From Sipunculus nudus (lineage: Eukaryota; Annelida; Sipuncula; Golfingiida; Sipunculidae): a DNA stretch of 64,000 bases. The notes beneath the pieces were generated by a model, which saw nothing but the letters and a program-made list of their open reading frames with translations, was not told where the DNA came from and searched no databases. Where the stretch lies: contig CM049311.1 of the NCBI GenBank assembly GCA_026874595.1, positions 53,695,676-53,759,675 on the forward strand, in the 5' to 3' direction. Within the stretch, counting starts at the first letter, position 1, and each line of letters begins with the position of its first letter. This document shows, piece by piece, positions 1-48,960 of this stretch. The position numbers and the translations under genes were made by a program.

Positions 1-3000
1 ATTAAACCATACCACTGGGTGTGATGATGACAGTATTTTCTTTGAGATATATATAAAACCTTACCACCGGGAATAATGATGACAGTATTTTCTTTGAGAT
101 ATATATAAAACCTTACCACTGGGTGTGATGATGACAGTATTTTCTTTGAGATATATATTAAACCATACCACTGGGTGTGATGATGACAGTATTTTCTTTG
201 AGATATATATAAAACCTTACCACCAGGAATAATGATGACAGTATTTTCTTTGAGATATATATAAAACCTTACCACCGGGAATAATGATGACAGTATTTTC
301 TTTGAGATATATATAAAACCTTACCACTGGGTGTGATGGTGACAGTATTTTCTATAAGATATATTAAAAACCTTATCCCTAGGGGTGATGATGACATTAT
401 TTTCTTTGAGATATATTCAAAACCTTATCCCTAGGGGTGATGATGAGATTATTTTCTTTGAGATATATAAAAAACCTTACCACTAGGTGTGATGATAACA
501 GTATTTTCTTTAAGATGTTTATAAACCTTACCTTTAGGTGTGATGATGACAGTATTTTCTTTGAGATAAATATAAAACCTTACCACTGGGTGTGATGATG
601 ACAGTATTTTCTTTGAGATATATATAAAACCTGACCACTGGGTGTGATGATTACAGTATTTTCTTTGAGATATATATAAAACCTTACCACTGGTGTGATG
701 ATGACAGTATTTTCTTTGAGATATATATAAAACCTTACCACCAGGAATAATGATGACAGTATTTTCTTTGAGATATATATAAAACCTTACCACTGGGTGT
801 GATGATGACAGTATTTCTTTGAGATATATATAAAACCATACCACTGGGTGTGATGATGACAGTATTTTCTTTAGGTATATATAAAACCATACCACTGGGT
901 GTGATGATGACAGTATTTTCTTTGAGATATATATAAAACCTTACCACCGGGAATAATGATGACAGTATTTTCTTTGAGATATATAAAAAACCTTATCACT
1001 GGGTGTGATGATGACAGTATTTTCTTTGAGATGTATGTATATAAAACCTTACCACTGGGTGTGATGATGACAGTATTTTCTTTGAGATAAATATAAAACC
1101 TTACCACTGGGTGTGATGATGACAGTATTTTCTTTGAGATATATATAAAACCTGACCACTGGGTGTGATGATTACAGTATTTTCTTTGAGATATATATAA
1201 AACCTTACCACTGGTGTGATGATGACAGTATTTTCTTTGAGATATATATAAAACCTTACCACCAGGAATAATGATGACAGTATTTTCTTTGAGATATATA
1301 TAAAACCTTACCACTGGGTGTGATGATGACAGTATTTCTTTGAGATATATATAAAACCATACCACTGGTTGTGATGATGACAGTATTTTTTTTAGGTATA
1401 TATAAAACCATACCACTGGGTGTGATGATGACAGTATTTTCTTTGAGATATATATAAAACCTTACCACCGGGAAAAATGATGACAGTATTTTCTTTGAGA
1501 TATATAAAAAACCTTATCACTGGGTGTGATGATGACAGTATTTTCTTTGAGATGTATGTATATAAAACCTTACCACTGGGTGTGATGATGACAGTAGTTT
1601 CTTTGAGATATATATAAAACCTTACCACTGGGTGTGATGATGACAGTATTTTCTTTGAGATATATATAAAACCTTACCACTGGGTGTGATGATGACAGTA
1701 TTTTCTTTGAGATATATATTAAACCATACCACTGGGTGTGATGATGACAGTATTTTCTTTGAGATATATATAAAACCTTACCACCGGGAATAATGATGAC
1801 AGTATTTTCTTTGAGATATATATAAAACCTTACCACTGGGTGTGATGATGACAGTATTTTCTTTGAGATATATATTAAACCATACCACTGGGTGTGATGA
1901 TGACAGTATTTTCTTTGAGATATATATAAAACCTTACCACCAGGAATAATGATGACAGTATTTTCTTTGAGATATATATAAAACCTTACCACCGGGAATA
2001 ATGATGACAGTATTTTCTTTGAGATATATATAAAACCTTACCACTGGGTGTGATGGTGACAGTATTTTCTATAAGATATATTAAAAACCTTATCCCTAGG
2101 GGTGATGATGACATTATTTTCTTTGAGATATATTCAAAACCTTATCCCTAGGGGTGATGATGAGATTATTTTCTTTGAGATATATAAAAAACCTTACCAC
2201 TAGGTGTGATGATAACAGTATTTTCTTTAAGATGTTTATAAACCTTACCTTTAGGTGTGATGATGACAGTATTTTCTTTGAGATAAATATAAAACCTTAC
2301 CACTGGGTGTGATGATGACAGTATTTTCTTTGAGATATATATAAAACCTGACCACTGGGTGTGATGATTACAGTATTTTCTTTGAGATATATATAAAACC
2401 TTACCACTGGTGTGATGATGACAGTATTTTCTTTGAGATATATATAAAACCTTACCACCAGGAATAATGATGACAGTATTTTCTTTGAGATATATATAAA
2501 ACCTTACCACTGGGTGTGATGATGACAGTATTTCTTTGAGATATATATAAAACCATACCACTGGGTGTGATGATGACAGTATTTTCTTTAGGTATATATA
2601 AAACCATACCACTGGGTGTGATGATGACAGTATTTTCTTTGAGATATATATAAAACCTTACCACCGGGAATAATGATGACAGTATTTTCTTTGAGATATA
2701 TAAAAAACCTTATCACTGGGTGTGATGATGACAGTATTTTCTTTGAGATGTATGTATATAAAACCTTACCACTGGGTGTGATGATGACAGTAGTTTCTTT
2801 GAGATATATATAAAACCTTACCACTGGGTGTGATGATGACAGTATTTTCTTTGAGATATATATAAAACCTTACCACTGGGTGTGATGATGACAGTATTTT
2901 CTTTGAGATATATATTAAACCATACCACTGGGTGTGATGATGTCAGTATTTTCTTTGAGATATATATAAAACCTTACCACCGGGAATAATGATGACAGTA

Positions 3001-4581
3001 TTTTCTTTGAGATATATATAAAACCTTACCACTGGGTGTGATGATGACAGTATTTTCTTTGAGATATATATTAAACCATACCACTGGGTGTGATGATGAC
3101 AGTATTTTCTTTGAGATATATATAAAACCTTACCACCGGGAATAATGATGACAGTATTTTCTTTGAGATATAAATAAAACCTTACCACTGGGTGTCATGA
3201 TGACAGTATTTTCTTTGAGATATATATAAAACCATACCACTGGGTGTGATGATGACAGTAGTTTCTTTGAGATATATATAAAACCTTACCACTGGGTGTG
3301 ATGATGACAGTATTTTCTTTGAGATATTTATAAAACCTTACCACTGGGTGTGATGATGACAGTATTTTCTTTGAGATATTTATAAAACCTGACCACTGGG
3401 TGTGATGATGACAGTATTTTCTTTAAGATGTTTATAAACCTTACCTTTAGGTGTGATGATGACAGTATTTTCTTTGAGATATATATAAAACCTTACCACT
3501 GGGTGTGATGATGACAGTATTTTCTTTGAGATATATATAAAACCTTACCACTAGGTGTGATGAATACAGTATTTTCTTTGAGATATATATAAAACCTTAC
3601 CACTGGTGTGATGATGACAGTATTTTCTTTGAGATATATATAAAACCTTACCACCAGGAATAATGATGACAGTATTTTCTTTGAGATATATATAAAACCT
3701 TACCACTGGGTGTGATGATGACAGTATTTCTTTGAGATATATATAAAACCATACCACTGGGTGTGATGATGACAGTATTTTTTTTAGGTATATATAAAAC
3801 CATACCACTGGGTGTCATGATGACAGTATTTTCTTTGAGATATATATAAAACCATACCACTGGGTGTGATGATGACAGTAGTTTCTTTGAGATATATATA
3901 AAACCTTACCACTGGGTGTGATGATGACAGTATTTTCTTTGAGATATTTATAAAACCTTACCACTGGGTGTGATGATGACAGTATTTTCTTTGAGATATT
4001 TATAAAACCTGACCACTGGGTGTGATGATGACAGTATTTTCTTTAAGATGTTTATAAACCTTACCTTTAGGTGTGATGATGACAGTATTTTCTTTGAGAT
4101 ATATATAAAACCTTACCACTGGGTGTGATGATGACAGTATTTTCTTTGAGATATATATAAAACCTTACCACCAGGAATAATGATGACAGTATTTTCTTTG
4201 AGATATATATAAAACCTTACCACCGGGAATAATGATGACAGTATTTTCTTTGAGATATATATAAAACCTTACCACTGGGTGTGATGGTGACAGTATTTTC
4301 TATAAGATATATTAAAAACCTTACCACTGGGTGTGATGATGACAGTATTTCTTTGAGATATATATAAAACCATACCACTGGGTGTGATGATGACAGTATT
4401 TTTTTTAGGTATATATAAAACCATACCACTGGGTGTGATGATGACAGTATTTTCTTTGAGATATATATAAAACCTTACCACCGGGAATAATGATGACAGT
4501 ATTTTCTTTGAGATATATAAAAAACCTTATCACTGGGTGTGATGATGACAGTATTTCTTTGAGATATATATAAAACCTTAC
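1..4581 (-). repeat. 52-bp minisatellite carrying an exon end and a 5' splice site
   Basis: About 88 head-to-tail units of about 52 bp, continuing past the left edge. Read on the minus strand, a typical unit is GTCATCATCACACCCAGTG followed by GTAAGGTTTTATATATATCT and CAAAGAAAATACT. The first 19 bases equal the last 19 bases of the adjoining tomosyn exon, and GTAAGG equals its splice donor. The unit is therefore a duplication of the exon-intron junction. Variants include a form with CCCGGTGGTAAGG, a GTATGG donor form, and forms in which the donor GT is lost (GATAAGG, GTCAGG). Units fall into larger blocks. Long minus-strand open frames exist because the unit has few stops in any frame. They are not independent genes. 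Confidence 0.95.
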
Positions 4582-4582
4582 C
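4576..4582 (-). promoter_or_regulatory. Native 5' splice site of the tomosyn exon
   Basis: G|GTAAGG at the exon boundary. It is placed here because the frame leaves the exon in phase 1 after PS-G, where the vertebrate protein continues in the next exon, and because unique exon sequence stops being repeated at this point. The same 7-mer recurs about every 52 bp further into the intron. Confidence 0.8.
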
Positions 4583-4704
4583 ACTGGGTGTGATGATGAC
4601 TGGTTGTGTTTTTCGCTGTTCACCCTCTGCTGCAAGATTCAGCACGATTACAAGAACAGAGCCCAAACTGGTACCCACCCATAGGCAAGGACTAGTGAAC
4701 ACAT
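4582..4704 (-). CDS. STXBP5: Tomosyn exon (C-terminal beta-propeller part, CLWVGTSLGS segment)
   Basis: Internal exon of tomosyn, the cytosolic R-SNARE-like protein that binds syntaxin/SNAP-25 and inhibits vesicle priming. The frame gives D-VFTSPCLWVGTSLGSVLVI then VLNLAAEGEQRKTQPVIITP and SG. This is close to the vertebrate segment with CLWVGT.LG.VLVI.LNLP..GEQR and QPVIVSPSG. The acceptor is a TGATGGTTTCAG tract ending at 4705. The donor is GTAAGG at 4576-4581. Length is 123 bp with phase 1 at both ends, matching exon 42573-42689, so the join reads TRKQ-D-VFTSPCLW. The donor side opens directly into the 52-bp array, so the true donor is followed by dozens of copies of itself. Identification is secure; the paralogue (STXBP5 versus STXBP5L) cannot be assigned. 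Confidence 0.95.
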
Positions 4705-5277
4705 CTGAAACCATCATACAGACATTAAATCCTGGTTCTGTCATAAAGACAACCAGAACAAATTAAGAATTACATGTAAAGTGATATATTGACATCAAAA
4801 CCTCCCTTGGTCATACATGTATTATCTGGCATTATAAAAACATTGTTACTGAAATCAGTATTATACATACACTCAGATGCCCTTCTAACACAGTAGGAAA
4901 TATTCCTGTCCCAGGGTTTCTGTGTTCAGTAATGATTGGGATTAAGAAGGCATTAACGTCAGCTCCTTGAGCATCGACAAATCTATAACTTTTACAGTTA
5001 TTTCATAAAATAATTCACTATAATACTTTGTTTCTGCAACAATGTTGGGATGAGTGATTTGTCTGAGTATCTCAGGGTCCTTCCCACCCTGTTTATCATA
5101 CATCTAACAAAGCTGGACATTTACTGGATTTATACAGCAAATGACACTATCTGCATAAGGACTTAGGTCCAGGGCCTGTCGACGACACTGTTGACTGAAT
5201 GATGCTGATGGTTACCATATGATAAAAATGCTCAGTTATTATTATATTAAAGGTGCCCATTCACCTACCTTTTGAAA
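4705..5277. other. Unique intron sequence upstream of the 3' tomosyn exon
   Basis: No repeat family and no convincing reading frame were seen. It holds the polypyrimidine tract and presumably the branch point for the acceptor at 4705. Confidence 0.6.
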
Positions 5278-7005
5278 AACAAGGGACCCATGGGTCACGG
5301 CACTCAGCTGAAGTTTGAAATTTTTGCAAATGCAAAATATTCTATTGTAATGTTTTTCATATATACAAGCATATGAGGAGCTTAGAGGAAAGGGGCCTTC
5401 CTACTTGAATATAATAAAGTTCTAAATATATGACTGCAAACATAATACTCTGACAAGTCTGTCATGAAGAAAAACAGTAGAAGTTTTGAGATACTGTGAT
5501 GCATATGATAAATTTACAGATGGACAGGCAAGTGGACAGAATAGACTAATACCTTTATTTCATTTTCAAGGGAATAATGCATTTAAGTTTATATTTAAGC
5601 CTATTTTTTTAAAATATCCACATTTTCCATTAACAGTTTTTATCAGATTCATTTTTTTATTTACAAGTTTTATAAACTTGAAATAAAAAATATGAAAATA
5701 CAAGTTAAAATATCAGAATTCTAAGTTGCAATCATTATTTATCCAGAGTGTAGCTCATATCGGGTCATATTATGCATACAAATATATTTTATTATTTTTT
5801 AAATAAAAAAAGTTTTATCTGAATTTAAAAGAAAACTAGAATACTGGTAGTTGACAAGCTGTGTATCCGCCAAAATCAGAGTAGGACGGATGAAGTGAGG
5901 CATGAGTTGAGTGGCAAGGAGAATTAGAGTTACATGTGTTACATATTAGAATTGATGTCTGCCACATAAACATGATTGTAGGTGGCGCCACCTGTTATTT
6001 GAACGAGAAACTATCCAAGATGTATACACCTGCAAAATTTTAGGTGGAAAAGTCAAACCACTGCAGAGATATGAGTGATTTTATCCCACAGCAGACAAAC
6101 AGATTGATGCTGTGCAAAAATGGCTGCAGGTGGTGCCACCATTTTTGTGTATTATATAAAGCTATCCAAGGGCTACATTTGTGTAAAATTTTTTTCCTAA
6201 TTGGTCGAACGAGTCCTGAGATATAATCATGGATGTCTACAGCGTGAACGTGAAAGAAGGTGGCGCCAACTGTCATAAAATCAAGAAAGCTATCTAGGAT
6301 GTATAGGCTTGCCGAATTTCAGGTGAATTAATCAAACCACTAATCAAAGGGCTACATTTGTAACAATTTTTTTTTCCTGATCAGTCAAACGGATCCAAAG
6401 ATATGTGGATTTATGTGTGGAAACAAGACCCACAAACGGATGCTTGGCAGAGAGGAAAGGTCAGAGGTCAACGCCAATTGGATAGGCACCAGTTCACATG
6501 TGACCAGATTATTGGTGTAAGTTTCAGAAAAATCCGTCTAGTAGTCTCAGAGGAGTTCTCAAGAAACAAATGCAGCAGCGGCGACGGAACCCAGTCAAAA
6601 ACATAGTATCCGCCAAAACGAAAAAATACCACAATTTGGCATCTTCAAGATTATTCCTTGAATCACTATTAAAATGTTTTGTACATTGGAGTTTTCAGTA
6701 CATGCTAAATTTTATTAACTGAAATAAAAGATTCAGTAAATCTAATAAAATAAAACCATTTTTTTTTTCAAATAAAGTATACACACTGTCAGTTGAATGA
6801 GGGACAAACAACATCATTGTGCTAATTAGTATCTCAGCTATAATTTTTTACTGGAATTAATAGTCAATTTCACACCTGGTGAAGTTTTTACTCTTCTGAA
6901 TTAAAGAATTACTTTATCTGATGAATATCCACACTTTCATATAGCAATACACCACTTTGTGGACACAATTAAGTGTGCACTTTAATCATTGTAACCCTTA
7001 AAATG
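5278..7005 (+). mobile_element. Alpha-family element, 3' end lost, split by a gamma Helitron
   Basis: Starts with AACAAGGGACCCATGGGTCAC followed by CACTCAGCTGAAG, the alpha 5' terminus with its GACCCATGGGTC palindrome. The interior (5500-5835 and 6627-7005) matches, in reverse, the interior of the copy at 14754-17907, and also 40073-40380. The alpha 3' hairpin is not found; similarity stops near 7005 where delta modules begin. A gamma element occupies 5836-6626. No coding capacity is evident. Confidence 0.7.
5836..6626 (-). mobile_element. Gamma Helitron-like element, copy A
   Basis: Nested in an alpha copy. The left end is CTAGAATACTGGTAGTTGAC and the right end has GTATCCGCCAAAACG. The host reads AAAAGAAAA|TAATGCC in the empty allele-like copies at 40241-40260 and (reversed) near 16770, so the element sits between A and T with no target duplication. 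Read on the minus strand, the element ends in a hairpin followed by CTAG, the usual Helitron 3' layout (CTRR). The interior has GGTGGCGCCACC-type modules and no transposase gene. Right boundary is uncertain by a few bases because of an A-run. Confidence 0.75.
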
Positions 7006-42572: not shown

Positions 42573-42689
42573 CTTGTTTCCGTGTGTAGGCGTCAGCAAA
42601 CATGAGACACTGTATAGCCTCCTTGTTGATATTTTCTAAACTTGACATACTCGAGCTCCGTGATCTTGAGAATGAACCATCGTTTTTAT
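42573..42689 (-). CDS. STXBP5: Tomosyn exon (SFSRSRSSS linker-to-propeller segment)
   Basis: Internal tomosyn exon of 117 bp, phase 1 on both sides. The frame reads D-KNDGSFSRSRSSSMSSLEN then INKEAIQCLMFADAYTRKQ. It aligns with the vertebrate segment containing DNSFSRSRSSS, then KE.REAI, then FTRK, at the end of the hypervariable linker. The acceptor is TTTTTTCTGTATTACAG just upstream; the donor is CAAG|GTACAG at 42567-42573. Joined to exon 4582-4704 the product runs YTRKQ-D-VFTSPCLWVGT. The serine-rich basic motif RSRSSS looks like a target for basophilic kinases, which is inference here. A 15-bp minisatellite begins about 50 bases upstream of the acceptor. Identification is secure. Confidence 0.95.
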
Positions 42690-42736
42690 CTGTAATACAG
42701 AAAAAACACAGCTTCCCCCATGGTATATCAAAAATA

Positions 42737-43000
42737 ACAATCAGGTCAATCATCCAGCTGTCAATCACCCTGATGTCAATCATACAGCTCTCAATCATTC
42801 AACTGTCAATCATCCTGATGTCAATCATCTAGCTGTTAATCATTCAGTCATCAATCATCCAGCTCTCAACCATTCAGCTGTCAATCATCTTGATGTCAAT
42901 CATCCAGCTCTTAATCTTTGAGGTGTCAATCATCGTGATGTTAAACAATCTGATGTCAATCACCCAGCTGTCAATCATCTGGCCGCCAACCATCCAACTT
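42737..43000 (-). repeat. 15-bp minisatellite beside the tomosyn acceptor
   Basis: About 17 degenerate 15-bp units, plus-strand consensus GTCAATCATCCAGCT (minus: AGCTGGATGATTGAC), with many CAGCTG cores. The array ends roughly 50 bases from the splice acceptor of exon 42573-42689. Confidence 0.9.
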
Positions 43001-45097: not shown

Positions 45098-48000
45098 TTG
45101 GTCTGTGTGTTCACTTCTCTGACTGTTCATTTCTTAGTCTATCTGTCCATTTCTTTGTCCTGCTGTACAATTATCTGTTTGGTAGTTCATTTCTTTATCT
45201 GGCTGCTCATTTCTTTGTCGGTCTGTTCCTTCTGATCTTTGTTGTGATGCTCATTTCCAATTCTGTCTGTCCATTTCTTGGTCTGTGTGTTCACTTCTCT
45301 GACTGGTTATTTCTTTGTCTGTCTGTCCATTTCTTTGTCCTGCTGTACAATTATCTGTCTGGTAGTTCATTTCTTTATCTGGCTGCTCATTTCTTTGTCG
45401 GTCTGTTCCTTCTGTTCTTTGTTGTGATGCTCATTTCCAATTCTGTCTGTCCATTTCTTGGTCTATGTGTTCACTTCTCTGACTGTTCATTTCTTTGTCT
45501 GTCTGTCCATTTCTTTGTCCTGCTGTACAATTATCTGTCTGGTAGTTCATTTCTTTATCTGGCTGCTCATTTCTTTGTCAGTCTGTTCCTTCTGTTCTTT
45601 GTTATGATGCTCATTTCCAATTCTGTCTGTCCATTTCTTGGTCTATGTGTTCACTTCTCTGACTGTTCATTTCTTTGTCTGTCTGTCCATTTCTTTGTCC
45701 TCCTGTACAATTATCTGTCTGGTAGTTCATTTCTTTATCTGGCTGCTCATTTCTTTGTCAGTTTGTTCCTTCTGTTCTTTGTTGTGATGCTCATTTCCAA
45801 TTCTGTCTGTCCATTTCTTGGTCTATGTGTTCACTTCTCTGACTGGTTATTTCTTTGTCTGTCTGTCCATTTCTTTGTCCTGCTGTACAATTATCTGTCT
45901 GGTAATTCATTTCTTTATCTGGCTGCTCATTTCTTTGTCGGTCTGTTCCTTCTGTTCTTTGTTGTGATGCTCATTTCCAATTCTGTCTGTCCATTTCTTG
46001 GTCTGTGTGTTCACTTCTCTGACTGGTTATTTCTTTGTCTGTCTGTCCATTTCTTTGTCCTCCTGTACAATTATCTGTCTGGTAGTTCATTTCTTTATCT
46101 GGCTGCTCATTTCTTTGTCAGTCTGTTCCTTCTGTTCTTTGTTGTGATGCTCATTTCCAATTCTGTCTGTCCATTTCTTGGTCTATGTGTTCACTTCTCT
46201 GACTGTTCATTTCTTAGTCTATCTGTCCATTTCTTTGTCCTGCTGTACAATTATCTGTCTGGTAGTTCATTTCTTTATCTGGCTGCTCATTTCTTTGTCG
46301 GTCTGTTCCTTCTGTTCTTTGTTGTGATGCTCATTTCCAATTCTGTCTGTCCATTTCTTGGTCTGTGTGTTCACTTCTCTGACTGGTTATTTCTTTGTCT
46401 GTCTGTCCATTTCTTTGTCCTCCTGTACAATTATCTGTCTGGTAGTTCATTTCTTTATCTGGCTGCTCATTTCTTTGTCAGTTTGTTCCTTCTGTTCTTT
46501 GTTGTGATGCTCATTTCCAATTCTGTCTGTCCATTTCTTGGTCTGTGTGTTCACTTCTCTGACTGGTTATTTCTTTGTCTGTCTGTCCATTTCTTTGTCC
46601 TGCTGTACAATTATCTGTCTGGTAGTTCATTTCTTTATCTGGCTGCTCATTTCTTTGTCGGTCTGTTCCTTCTGTTCTTTGTTGTGATGCTCATTTCCAA
46701 TTCTGTCTGTCCATTTCTTGGTCTGTGTGTTCACTTCTCTGACTGGTTATTTCTTTGTCTGTCTGTCCATTTTTTTGTCCTCCTGTACAATTATCTGTCT
46801 GGTAGTTCATTTCTTTATCTGGCTGCTCATTTCTTTGTCGGTCTGTTCCTTCTGTTCTTTGTTGTAATGCTCATTTCCAATTCTGTCTGTCCATTTCTTG
46901 GTCTATGTGTTCACTTCTCTGACTGTTCATTTCTTAGTCTATCTGTCCATTTCTTTGTCCTGCTGTACAATTATCTGTCTGGTAGTTCATTTCTTTATCT
47001 GGCTGCTCATTTCTTTGTCAGTCTGTTCCTTCTGTTCTTTGTTGTGATGCTCATTTCCAATTCTGTCTGTCCATTTCTTGGTCTATGTGTTCACTTCTCT
47101 GACTGTTCATTTCTTAGTCTATCTGTCCATTTCTTTGTCCTGCTGTACAATTATCTGTCTGGTAGTTCATTTCTTTATCTGGCTGCTCATTTCTTTGTCA
47201 GTTTGTTCCTTCTGTTCTTTGTCGTGATGCTCATTTCCAATTCTGTCTGTCCATTTCTTGGTCTGTGTGTTCACTTCTCTGACTGTTCATTTCTTTGTCT
47301 GTCTGTCCATTTCTTTGTCCTCCTGTACAATTATCTGTCTGGTAGTTCATTTCTTTATCTGGCTGCTCATTTCTTTGTTGGTCTGTTCCTTCTGTTCTTT
47401 GTTGTGATGCTCATTTCCAATTCTGTCTGTCCATTTCTTGGTCTATGTGTTCACTTCTCTGACTGTTCATTTCTTTGTCTGTCTGTCCATTTCTTTGTCC
47501 TCCTGTACAATTATCTGTCTGGTAGTTCATTTCTTTATCTGGCTGCTCATTTCTTTGTCGGTCTGTTCCTTCTGTTCTTTGTTGTAATGCTCATTTCCAA
47601 TTCTGTCTGTCCATTTCTTGGTCTATGTGTTCACTTCTCTGACTGTTCATTTCTTAGTCTATCTGTCCATTTGTTTGTCCTGCTGTACAATTATCTGTCT
47701 GATAGTTCATTTCTTTATCTGGCTGCTCATTTCTTTGTCGGTCTGTTCCTTCTGTTCTTTGTTGTGATGCTCATTTCCAATTCTGTCTGTCCATTTCTTG
47801 GTCTGTGTGTTCACTTCTCTGACTGTTCATTTCTTTGTCTGTCTCTCCATTTCTTTGTCCTGCTGTACAATTTTCTGTCTGGTAGTTCATTTCTTTATCT
47901 GGCTGCTCATTTCTTTGTCGGTCTGTTCCTTCTGTTCTTTGTTGTGATGCTCATTTCCAATTCTGTCTGTCCATTTCTTGGTCTATGTGTTCACTTCTCT

Positions 48001-48720
48001 GACTGGTTATTTCTTTGTCTGTCTCTCCATTTCTTTGTCCTGCTGTACAATTATCTGTCTGGTAGTTCATTTCTTTATCTGGCTGCTCATTTCTTTGTCG
48101 GTCTGTTCCTTCTGTTCTTTGTTGTAATGCTCATTTCCAATTCTGTCTGTCCATTTCTTGGTCTATGTGTTCACTTCTCTGACTGTTCATTTCTTAGTCT
48201 ATCTGTCCATTTCTTTGTCCTGCTGTACAATTATCTGTCTGGTAGTTCATTTCTTTATCTGGCTGCTCATTTCTTTGTCGGTCTGTTCCTTCTGTTCTTT
48301 GTTGTGATGCTCATTTCCAATTCTGTCTGTCCATTTCTTGGTCTATGTGTTCACTTCTCTGACTGGTTATTTCTTTGTCTGTCTCTCCATTTCTTTGTCC
48401 TCCTGTACAATTATCTGTCTGGTAGTTCATTTCTTTATCTGGCTGCTCATTTCTTTGTCGGTCTGTTCCTTCTGTTCTTTGTTGTAATGCTCATTTCCAA
48501 TTCTGTGTGTCCATTTCTTGGTCTATGTGTTCACTTCTCTGACTGTTCATTTCTTAGTCTATCTGTCCATTTCTTTGTCCTGCTGTACAATTATCTGTCT
48601 GGTAGTTCATTTCTTTATCTGGCTGCTCATTTCTTTGTCAGTCTGTTCCTTCTGTTCTTTGTTGTGATGCTCATTTCCAATTCTGTCTGTCCATTTCTTG
48701 GTCTGTGTGTTCACTTCTCT
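45098..48720 (+). repeat. 180-bp satellite with open frame on the plus strand
   Basis: About 20 units of exactly 180 bp with no visible indel between units. Each is built from degenerate ~20-bp subunits around CTGTCTGTCCATTTCTTTGTC. One plus-strand frame is open from 45247 to 48738, giving about 19 copies of a hydrophobic 60-residue repeat (for example NSVCPFLGLCVHFSDW). Units differ at a limited set of positions in mosaic fashion (CTA/CTG, CTG/CTC, GGT/AGT, TGG/TGT). The pyrimidine-rich strand makes stops rare by chance. I see no promoter, start context or splice signal supporting a gene, so I class it as satellite. Confidence 0.9.
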
Positions 48721-48960
48721 GACAGGTTATTTTGTTGATTCGCTGTTCATTTCCTTGTCTGTGTGTCCATTTCTTTGTCCTGCTGTACTATAATCTGTCT
48801 GGCAGGTAATTTTTTTCATCTGCCTGTCATTTCCACTTTGTCTGGCTGTCTCTTCCATTCTTTGTAGTGTTGTTCATTTCTATGCCTGTCTTTATATTTC
48901 TTTGTCTGTCTGTTAATTTTTTGGTCTTACTTTCCATTTCAATGTCAGGATCTCCATTAA
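48721..48960 (+). repeat. Decayed edge of the 180-bp satellite
   Basis: Sequence still resembles the unit (CTGTTCATTTCCTTGTCTG, TCCATTTCTTTGTCC) but with indels and many substitutions, as expected at an array edge. Confidence 0.8.

Follow-up and report, generated by a model that had tools for sequence, protein, structure and literature searches.

A giant minisatellite repeats the exon-intron junction of a tomosyn exon in Sipunculus nudus

Here we describe a tandem array in a 64,000-nucleotide stretch of the Sipunculus nudus genome (GenBank assembly GCA_026874595.1, contig CM049311.1, called C6 below, positions 53,695,676 to 53,759,675; hereafter the window), in which the 3' edge of an exon of tomosyn (STXBP5) and the beginning of the adjoining intron recur in units of 52 bp. 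Judged by its sequence, the repeat unit is the amplified exon-intron junction of this exon. We consider it probable that the array is a giant junction-spanning minisatellite, or 'mirage', that is near-neutral and leaves the real donor in use. Tomosyn controls neurotransmitter release, and the locus presents a natural experiment in which the spliceosome must choose one donor among ~100 that carry the same nine bases and lie 52 bases apart.

The assignment of the exon to tomosyn in the first-pass annotation of this DNA is borne out by homology and by gene structure. Comparison of window positions 4565-4708 (minus strand) with human STXBP5 by tblastn yields 62.5% identity at an E value of 1.3e-12. 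Other tomosyn exon matches are colinear with the human protein on the minus strand of C6, from 53,895,542 down to 53,631,997. The exon is preceded by TTTCAG and starts with AT, where the preceding exon ends in G, such that the join G|AT encodes D. At its other end, AGT G is followed by GTAAGG, and the following exon opens after TTTCAG with GT ACA ATA to give S-G-T-I-F-R; the first intron base is position 4581, in agreement with the first-pass annotation. Since the exon is in phase 1 at both ends, its skipping would preserve the frame. The following exon begins at ~C6:53,676,066, which gives the array-bearing intron a length of ~24.2 kb. The features at the junction are as follows.

4582..4704, minus strand: tomosyn (STXBP5) exon of 123 nucleotides (nt), phase 1 at both ends, identified by tblastn, genome search and reading of splice phases
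4576..4581, minus strand: real 5' splice site GTAAGG, identified by sequence, U1 duplex energy -8.5 kcal/mol
4582..4600, minus strand: the 19 exon-derived bases GTCATCATCACACCCAGTG, with which the repeat unit begins; 78 of the 164 near-full units have them unchanged
1..4600, minus strand: window part of the 52-bp minisatellite, with 88 near-full units including the real junction; the array extends to C6:53,689,792 and has 166 units in total

Tandem Repeats Finder (TRF) places a 52-bp array at 4-4600, with 88.5 copies and 91% matches. Alignment of the array to the exon shows that the first 19 bases of the consensus unit are the last 19 bases of the exon, where the alignment ends at 4600. These bases are followed in the unit by the donor GTAAGG and 27 more intron bases, for 33 intron bases in all. 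Among the 88 near-full units of the window, GT is retained in 80, GTAAG in 58 and all 19 exon bases in 45, so the earlier description of each unit as a repeat of the 19 bases holds only if variants are admitted. The tandem array itself is confirmed and is larger than had been claimed, continuing for 5,884 bp beyond the window. Over its whole length, the array comprises an 8,081-bp block with 156 units and a 484-bp block with 10 units, with 1,919 bp between them; the units amount to 8,565 bp, or ~10.5 kb when the insertion is counted. Near-full units number 164 of the 166 and fall into 33 distinct types. With the real junction counted, 146 of these 164 carry GT, in keeping with the ladder of donor-like sites proposed earlier, while 106 carry GTAAG and 99 carry the nine donor bases GTGGTAAGG. 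On average, the exon part of the units is 92% identical to the consensus and the intron part 96%. The assembled stretch contains no N, and neither AATAAA nor ATTAAA occurs on the sense strand of the main array block.

Several origins for the unit can be set aside. A chance likeness to the exon is ruled out by the 19 identical bases in register with GTAAGG and by the array abutting position 4600. The converse relationship, with the repeat as source and the exon as product, is ruled out because the 19 bases belong to a piece that encodes conserved protein (VIITPSG, against VIVSPSG in the human query), which makes the exon the source of the repeat. Nor is the unit a genome-wide dispersed satellite, as judged from exact copies and not from diverged ones, which were not searched elsewhere: the exact 25-mer of 19 exon bases and GTAAGG has 43 matches in the 1.43-Gb assembly, all at C6:53,689,865-53,700,275. 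A separate count inside the array likewise gives 43, and the reversed 25-mer has no match in the assembly. Inspection of the array ends reveals that the exon-proximal copy is the real junction, and that the farthest unit, by eye the most divergent, passes into unique intron through ATATATATCAAAGAA. This is the arrangement expected if tandem duplication placed copies of the junction segment downstream of the original.

Exact repeats within the array (2,789, 1,317 and 1,274 bp long, spaced 2,753, 4,470 and 1,717 bp apart, respectively) indicate block duplications that, in this single haplotype, fit recent turnover. The exact 2,789-bp duplicate may have arisen recently or may be an error of the assembly. 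The array is also interrupted once.

C6:53690276-53692194: insertion of 1,919 bp within the array; an ACGG run lies close to one end of the insertion

The start of the insertion, CAAGGGACCYATGGGTCAC, resembles a repeat family with 9 matches in the window at no more than 2 mismatches (e.g., 5280-5298), where none is expected by chance. Four uninterrupted copies of the insertion site exist elsewhere in the array, so the insertion postdates the copying of its host unit type.

Taken as a history, these features show that a segment of ~52 bp, made up of the last 19 exon bases and the first 33 intron bases, was duplicated in tandem. The new copies are downstream in the intron: the real junction is still the copy next to the exon, and the copy at the far end leads into the old intron. 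Growth then proceeded in part by duplication of many-unit blocks, and the array received its 1.9-kb insertion. The array is presumably transcribed within the tomosyn intron, where the spliceosome would keep the exon-proximal donor because exon definition favors the donor nearest the 123-nt exon. Use of a nearby intact decoy would produce messages with premature stops, which would probably be degraded. The array would then be near-neutral and retained because the real donor is undamaged.

The consequences of decoy use can be read from the first two copies downstream of the real junction.

4525..4530, minus strand: decoy 1 (+51 nt), with ATAAGG in place of GTAAGG; the sole in-frame, stop-free extension, lacking GT
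4473..4478, minus strand: decoy 2 (+103 nt), with intact GTAAGG; shifts the frame

After extension to decoy 2, the following exon runs into a stop within its translated part. Further, the GTAA of decoy 2 itself creates a TAA at 4477-4475, which every longer extension would read in frame and which precedes every later decoy. Use of any intact decoy would thus bring in a premature stop. Lengthening of the exon by whole units, as proposed earlier, would accordingly yield no longer protein: decoy 1 has AT rather than GT, extension to decoy 2 leaves the frame and the TAA at 4477-4475 stands before all later decoys. The calculated duplex with the U1 5' end is -8.5 kcal/mol for the real donor and for 98 other near-full units alike, with 7 units at -10.0 kcal/mol. 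Sequence alone does not set the real donor apart, so its position presumably does. The region across the junction (window 4400-4620) shows no special RNA fold, its z score of +1.54 marking a fold no better than those of shuffles. A further suggestion of the first-pass annotation, that the array sequesters U1 small nuclear ribonucleoprotein, is numerically implausible, with 146 sites in each transcript set against a U1 pool of the order of 10^5-10^6 per nucleus. As for the slowing of splicing that was also suggested, the published amphioxus cases report no interference (PMC3087553, PMC3902484). The sequence thus lends no support to the regulatory reading.

To ask whether some process targets donors, we surveyed 80 other exon matches: 20 from tomosyn, together with independent samples of the 30 best among 75 matches to the myosin head and the 30 best among 126 to kinesin. 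For each match, the 60 bases centered on the match end were examined for a second copy in the locus that reached at least 8 exon-side and at least 6 intron-side bases; many match ends are not exact exon ends, and several matches contain stops. Random flank positions served as a control, in which any second copy in the locus was scored, tandem or not. TRF was also run on 18 other pieces of DNA that surround exons of tomosyn and of lethal giant larvae; the four loci of the lethal giant larvae gene on contig C2 (L017-L020) were scanned in this way and excluded from the count, their exon ends not having been placed.

With the donor of the present array excluded, junction-spanning repeats are found at 5 of 80 donors (tomosyn 2/20, myosin 2/30, kinesin 1/30) and at 1 of 80 acceptors, in comparison with 177 of 1,362 random flank positions (13%). 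When a single random position is drawn from each locus, 10.7 of 80 score on average; five or fewer is reached with a probability of 0.015 and one or none in 0 of 20,000 draws. That is to say, donors are not enriched and by this test fall below background, and acceptors do so even more. A process that targets repeats to donors is therefore ruled out. The difference between donors and acceptors is itself not significant in this sample (Fisher p 0.21), and neither is that for arrays within 40 nt (7/80 versus 3/80, p 0.33). Inspection of the five scoring donors confirms that exon sequence is repeated at four of them (L004, L005, L049 and L038); the kinesin case, KIN_L062, is intron-only, with a match end that overshoots the donor. 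The arrays at or near these junctions are listed here.

C6:53775000-53778600: tomosyn exon (L004) with donor-spanning array, 38 bp x 24.6, ~20 exon bases
C6:53788300-53791500: tomosyn exon (L005) with donor-spanning array, 47 bp x 3.5, ~28 exon bases
C7:52357284-52360541: myosin exon (L049) with donor-spanning array, 36 bp x 27.8
C4:13957386-13960529: myosin exon (L038) with two-copy junction
C6:53784700-53786800: tomosyn locus (L008) with array that starts just inside the intron, 58 bp x 16.6
Tomosyn locus L006: array that starts just inside the intron, 38 bp x 2.1
Contig C13: kinesin exon (L070) with 17-bp array containing CTACAG|AC on the acceptor side, the single acceptor case of the sample

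Donor-spanning arrays of at least three copies thus occur at three further exons, two of tomosyn and one of myosin, with a two-copy junction at a fourth, and the junction array is not unique to the present tomosyn exon. At L008, the units contain GTAAGT and the apparent real donor is GTATGT. TRF coverage over 81 matches, this exon included, is 8-10% in the first 120 intron bases on the donor side and 8-10% at 120-1,000; on the acceptor side it is 1.5-3.2% in the 120 bases before the match start versus 9.5-11% at 250-1,000. As a lead rather than a result, given the few arrays, the introns appear rich in minisatellites that reach donors freely and occasionally include the exon edge, with the acceptor side kept clear. 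This asymmetry in the sampled matches is testable genome-wide.

The closest counterparts are the mirages of amphioxus (Adh3, the globins BflGb6 and BflGb9, PGBD5 and TnC), which in the passages compared are likewise tandem duplications that span a boundary and carry splice signals in many copies. BflGb9 is a mirage of the donor side; 6 and 3 units are given for BflGb6, and Adh3 units measure 10-72 bp (PMC3087553, PMC3902484). Inspection of the tomosyn units reveals both exon and intron sequence of the real junction (19 + 33 bases) and splice signals in many, not all, copies (GT in 146 and GTAAG in 106 of 164). At the level of sequence, the array has the defining features of a mirage. With 166 units of 52 bp and ~10.5 kb including the insertion, it is much the largest when set against the cases in the passages compared. 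Splicing of the amphioxus genes is reported there to be undisturbed, as checked by reverse transcription PCR (PMC3087553, PMC3902484).

Boundary repeats are also described in people. The human CBS gene carries a 31-bp variable number tandem repeat (VNTR), c.1444_1467+7(16_21), with 16-21 copies that vary among people (PMC2630376). By our own reading of this notation, the unit joins 24 exon bases to 7 intron bases and so holds an exon end with its donor, as in tomosyn; its copy number is ten times below that of the tomosyn array. The VNTR is reportedly associated with enzyme activity, going by the title of a 2001 study by Lievers. Human coagulation factor VII offers another parallel, with 37-bp repeats in intron 7 that copy a donor. 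In genes of human segmental duplications, boundary minisatellites can, in the passages compared, activate cryptic splice sites and create new introns; those repeats, found through transcript-genome comparison, have units of ~30 bp in ~4 copies (PMC2812944), as against 52 bp x 166 in tomosyn. It has been proposed that such minisatellites give rise to new introns and shift the ends of exons (PMC3087553, PMC2812944), and the present arrays show that exon edges can become part of minisatellites outside lancelets and people too. A literature search returned no report of the tomosyn array or of another in this gene, with no query that paired tomosyn with a repeat term.

The near-neutral reading is supported by donor columns that show no sign of selection, by the lack of a usable frame-keeping decoy, by like arrays at other exons and by amphioxus mirages that are reported, in the passages compared, not to disturb splicing (PMC3087553, PMC3902484). 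A function for the array, as far as can be told from these features, is most likely none or slight. Three points weigh against this reading. In strength the real donor does not exceed 98 of the other near-full units, and some splicing could well leak to decoys in the nearest few hundred bases. The rule that the exon-adjacent copy wins is not general, since at an acceptor-side boundary of CBS a 68-bp junction duplication in people leads to use of the more distal of two sites, according to the passage compared (PMC2630376). Lastly, the copy number is uncertain because the exact 2,789-bp duplicate may be either recent or an assembly error.

An unlikely alternative is that the array forms a regulated ladder of poison donors, where decoy use adds the TAA at 4477-4475 or a frameshift and lowers tomosyn by nonsense-mediated decay, with array length tuning the level. 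Besides the real junction, 145 of 163 near-full copies keep GT and 98 share its nine bases, and an identical donor, that of decoy 2, follows after only 103 nt. As no intact decoy keeps the frame open, alternative junctions could introduce a premature stop. Regulation of this kind is not reflected in the donor columns, which are no better conserved than the others within this one array: variant unit types per column number 2.5 for GTAAGG, 2.68 for the exon part and 2.11 for the rest, and in 35 of the 52 windows of six columns the value equals or falls below that of the donor. Comparable arrays at unrelated exons, as by-products would give, and the reported lack of disturbance in published mirages, in the passages compared (PMC3087553, PMC3902484), also speak against it. 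A more specific form of the idea, which we regard as distinctly unlikely, is a length-tunable attenuator in which the real donor would face competition from a few identical intact decoys within ~500 nt, all of them leading to a premature stop, such that gain or loss of exon-near units would set the tomosyn level. If this were so, the level of tomosyn, and hence neurotransmitter release, could be set per population or tissue, and the AT mutation of decoy 1 would have removed the only frame-keeping extension.

Very unlikely, in our estimation, is that the array hampers exon recognition or slows splicing such that the 123-nt exon is partly skipped, leaving tomosyn 41 residues shorter. The length of the exon, its phase 1 at both ends and the many equal U1 sites nearby would permit this outcome. 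Opposed to it are the conservation of the skipped part with human tomosyn and the harm that partial loss of the beta-propeller would likely cause. Least probable of all is an assembly artefact that accounts for the copy number or for much of the block structure, as the exact 2,789-bp duplicate, 2,753 bp from its counterpart, and the single haplotype might suggest, against which stand the 33 distinct near-full unit types, the absence of N and the further junction arrays at other exons.

Other observations concern the remainder of the window and the assembly. The upstream neighbor of the array-bearing exon lies within the window.

42574..42690, minus strand: preceding (upstream) tomosyn exon, given as a match span, exact ends not set

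A 15-bp (75-bp) array at 42745-42979 shortly precedes the acceptor of this exon, and positions 45098-48927 hold a 3.8-kb intronic array with periods of 20 bp and 180 bp. Outside the window, four adjacent matches to a single stretch of the myosin head (~positions 109-153) occur at C2:44849337-44852248 and are perhaps alternative exons of one gene. Many near-identical COX1-family matches are present on the small contigs C60-C89 and C123; the one translated (C123) resembles a bacterial oxidase, and the assembly seems to contain bacterial DNA.

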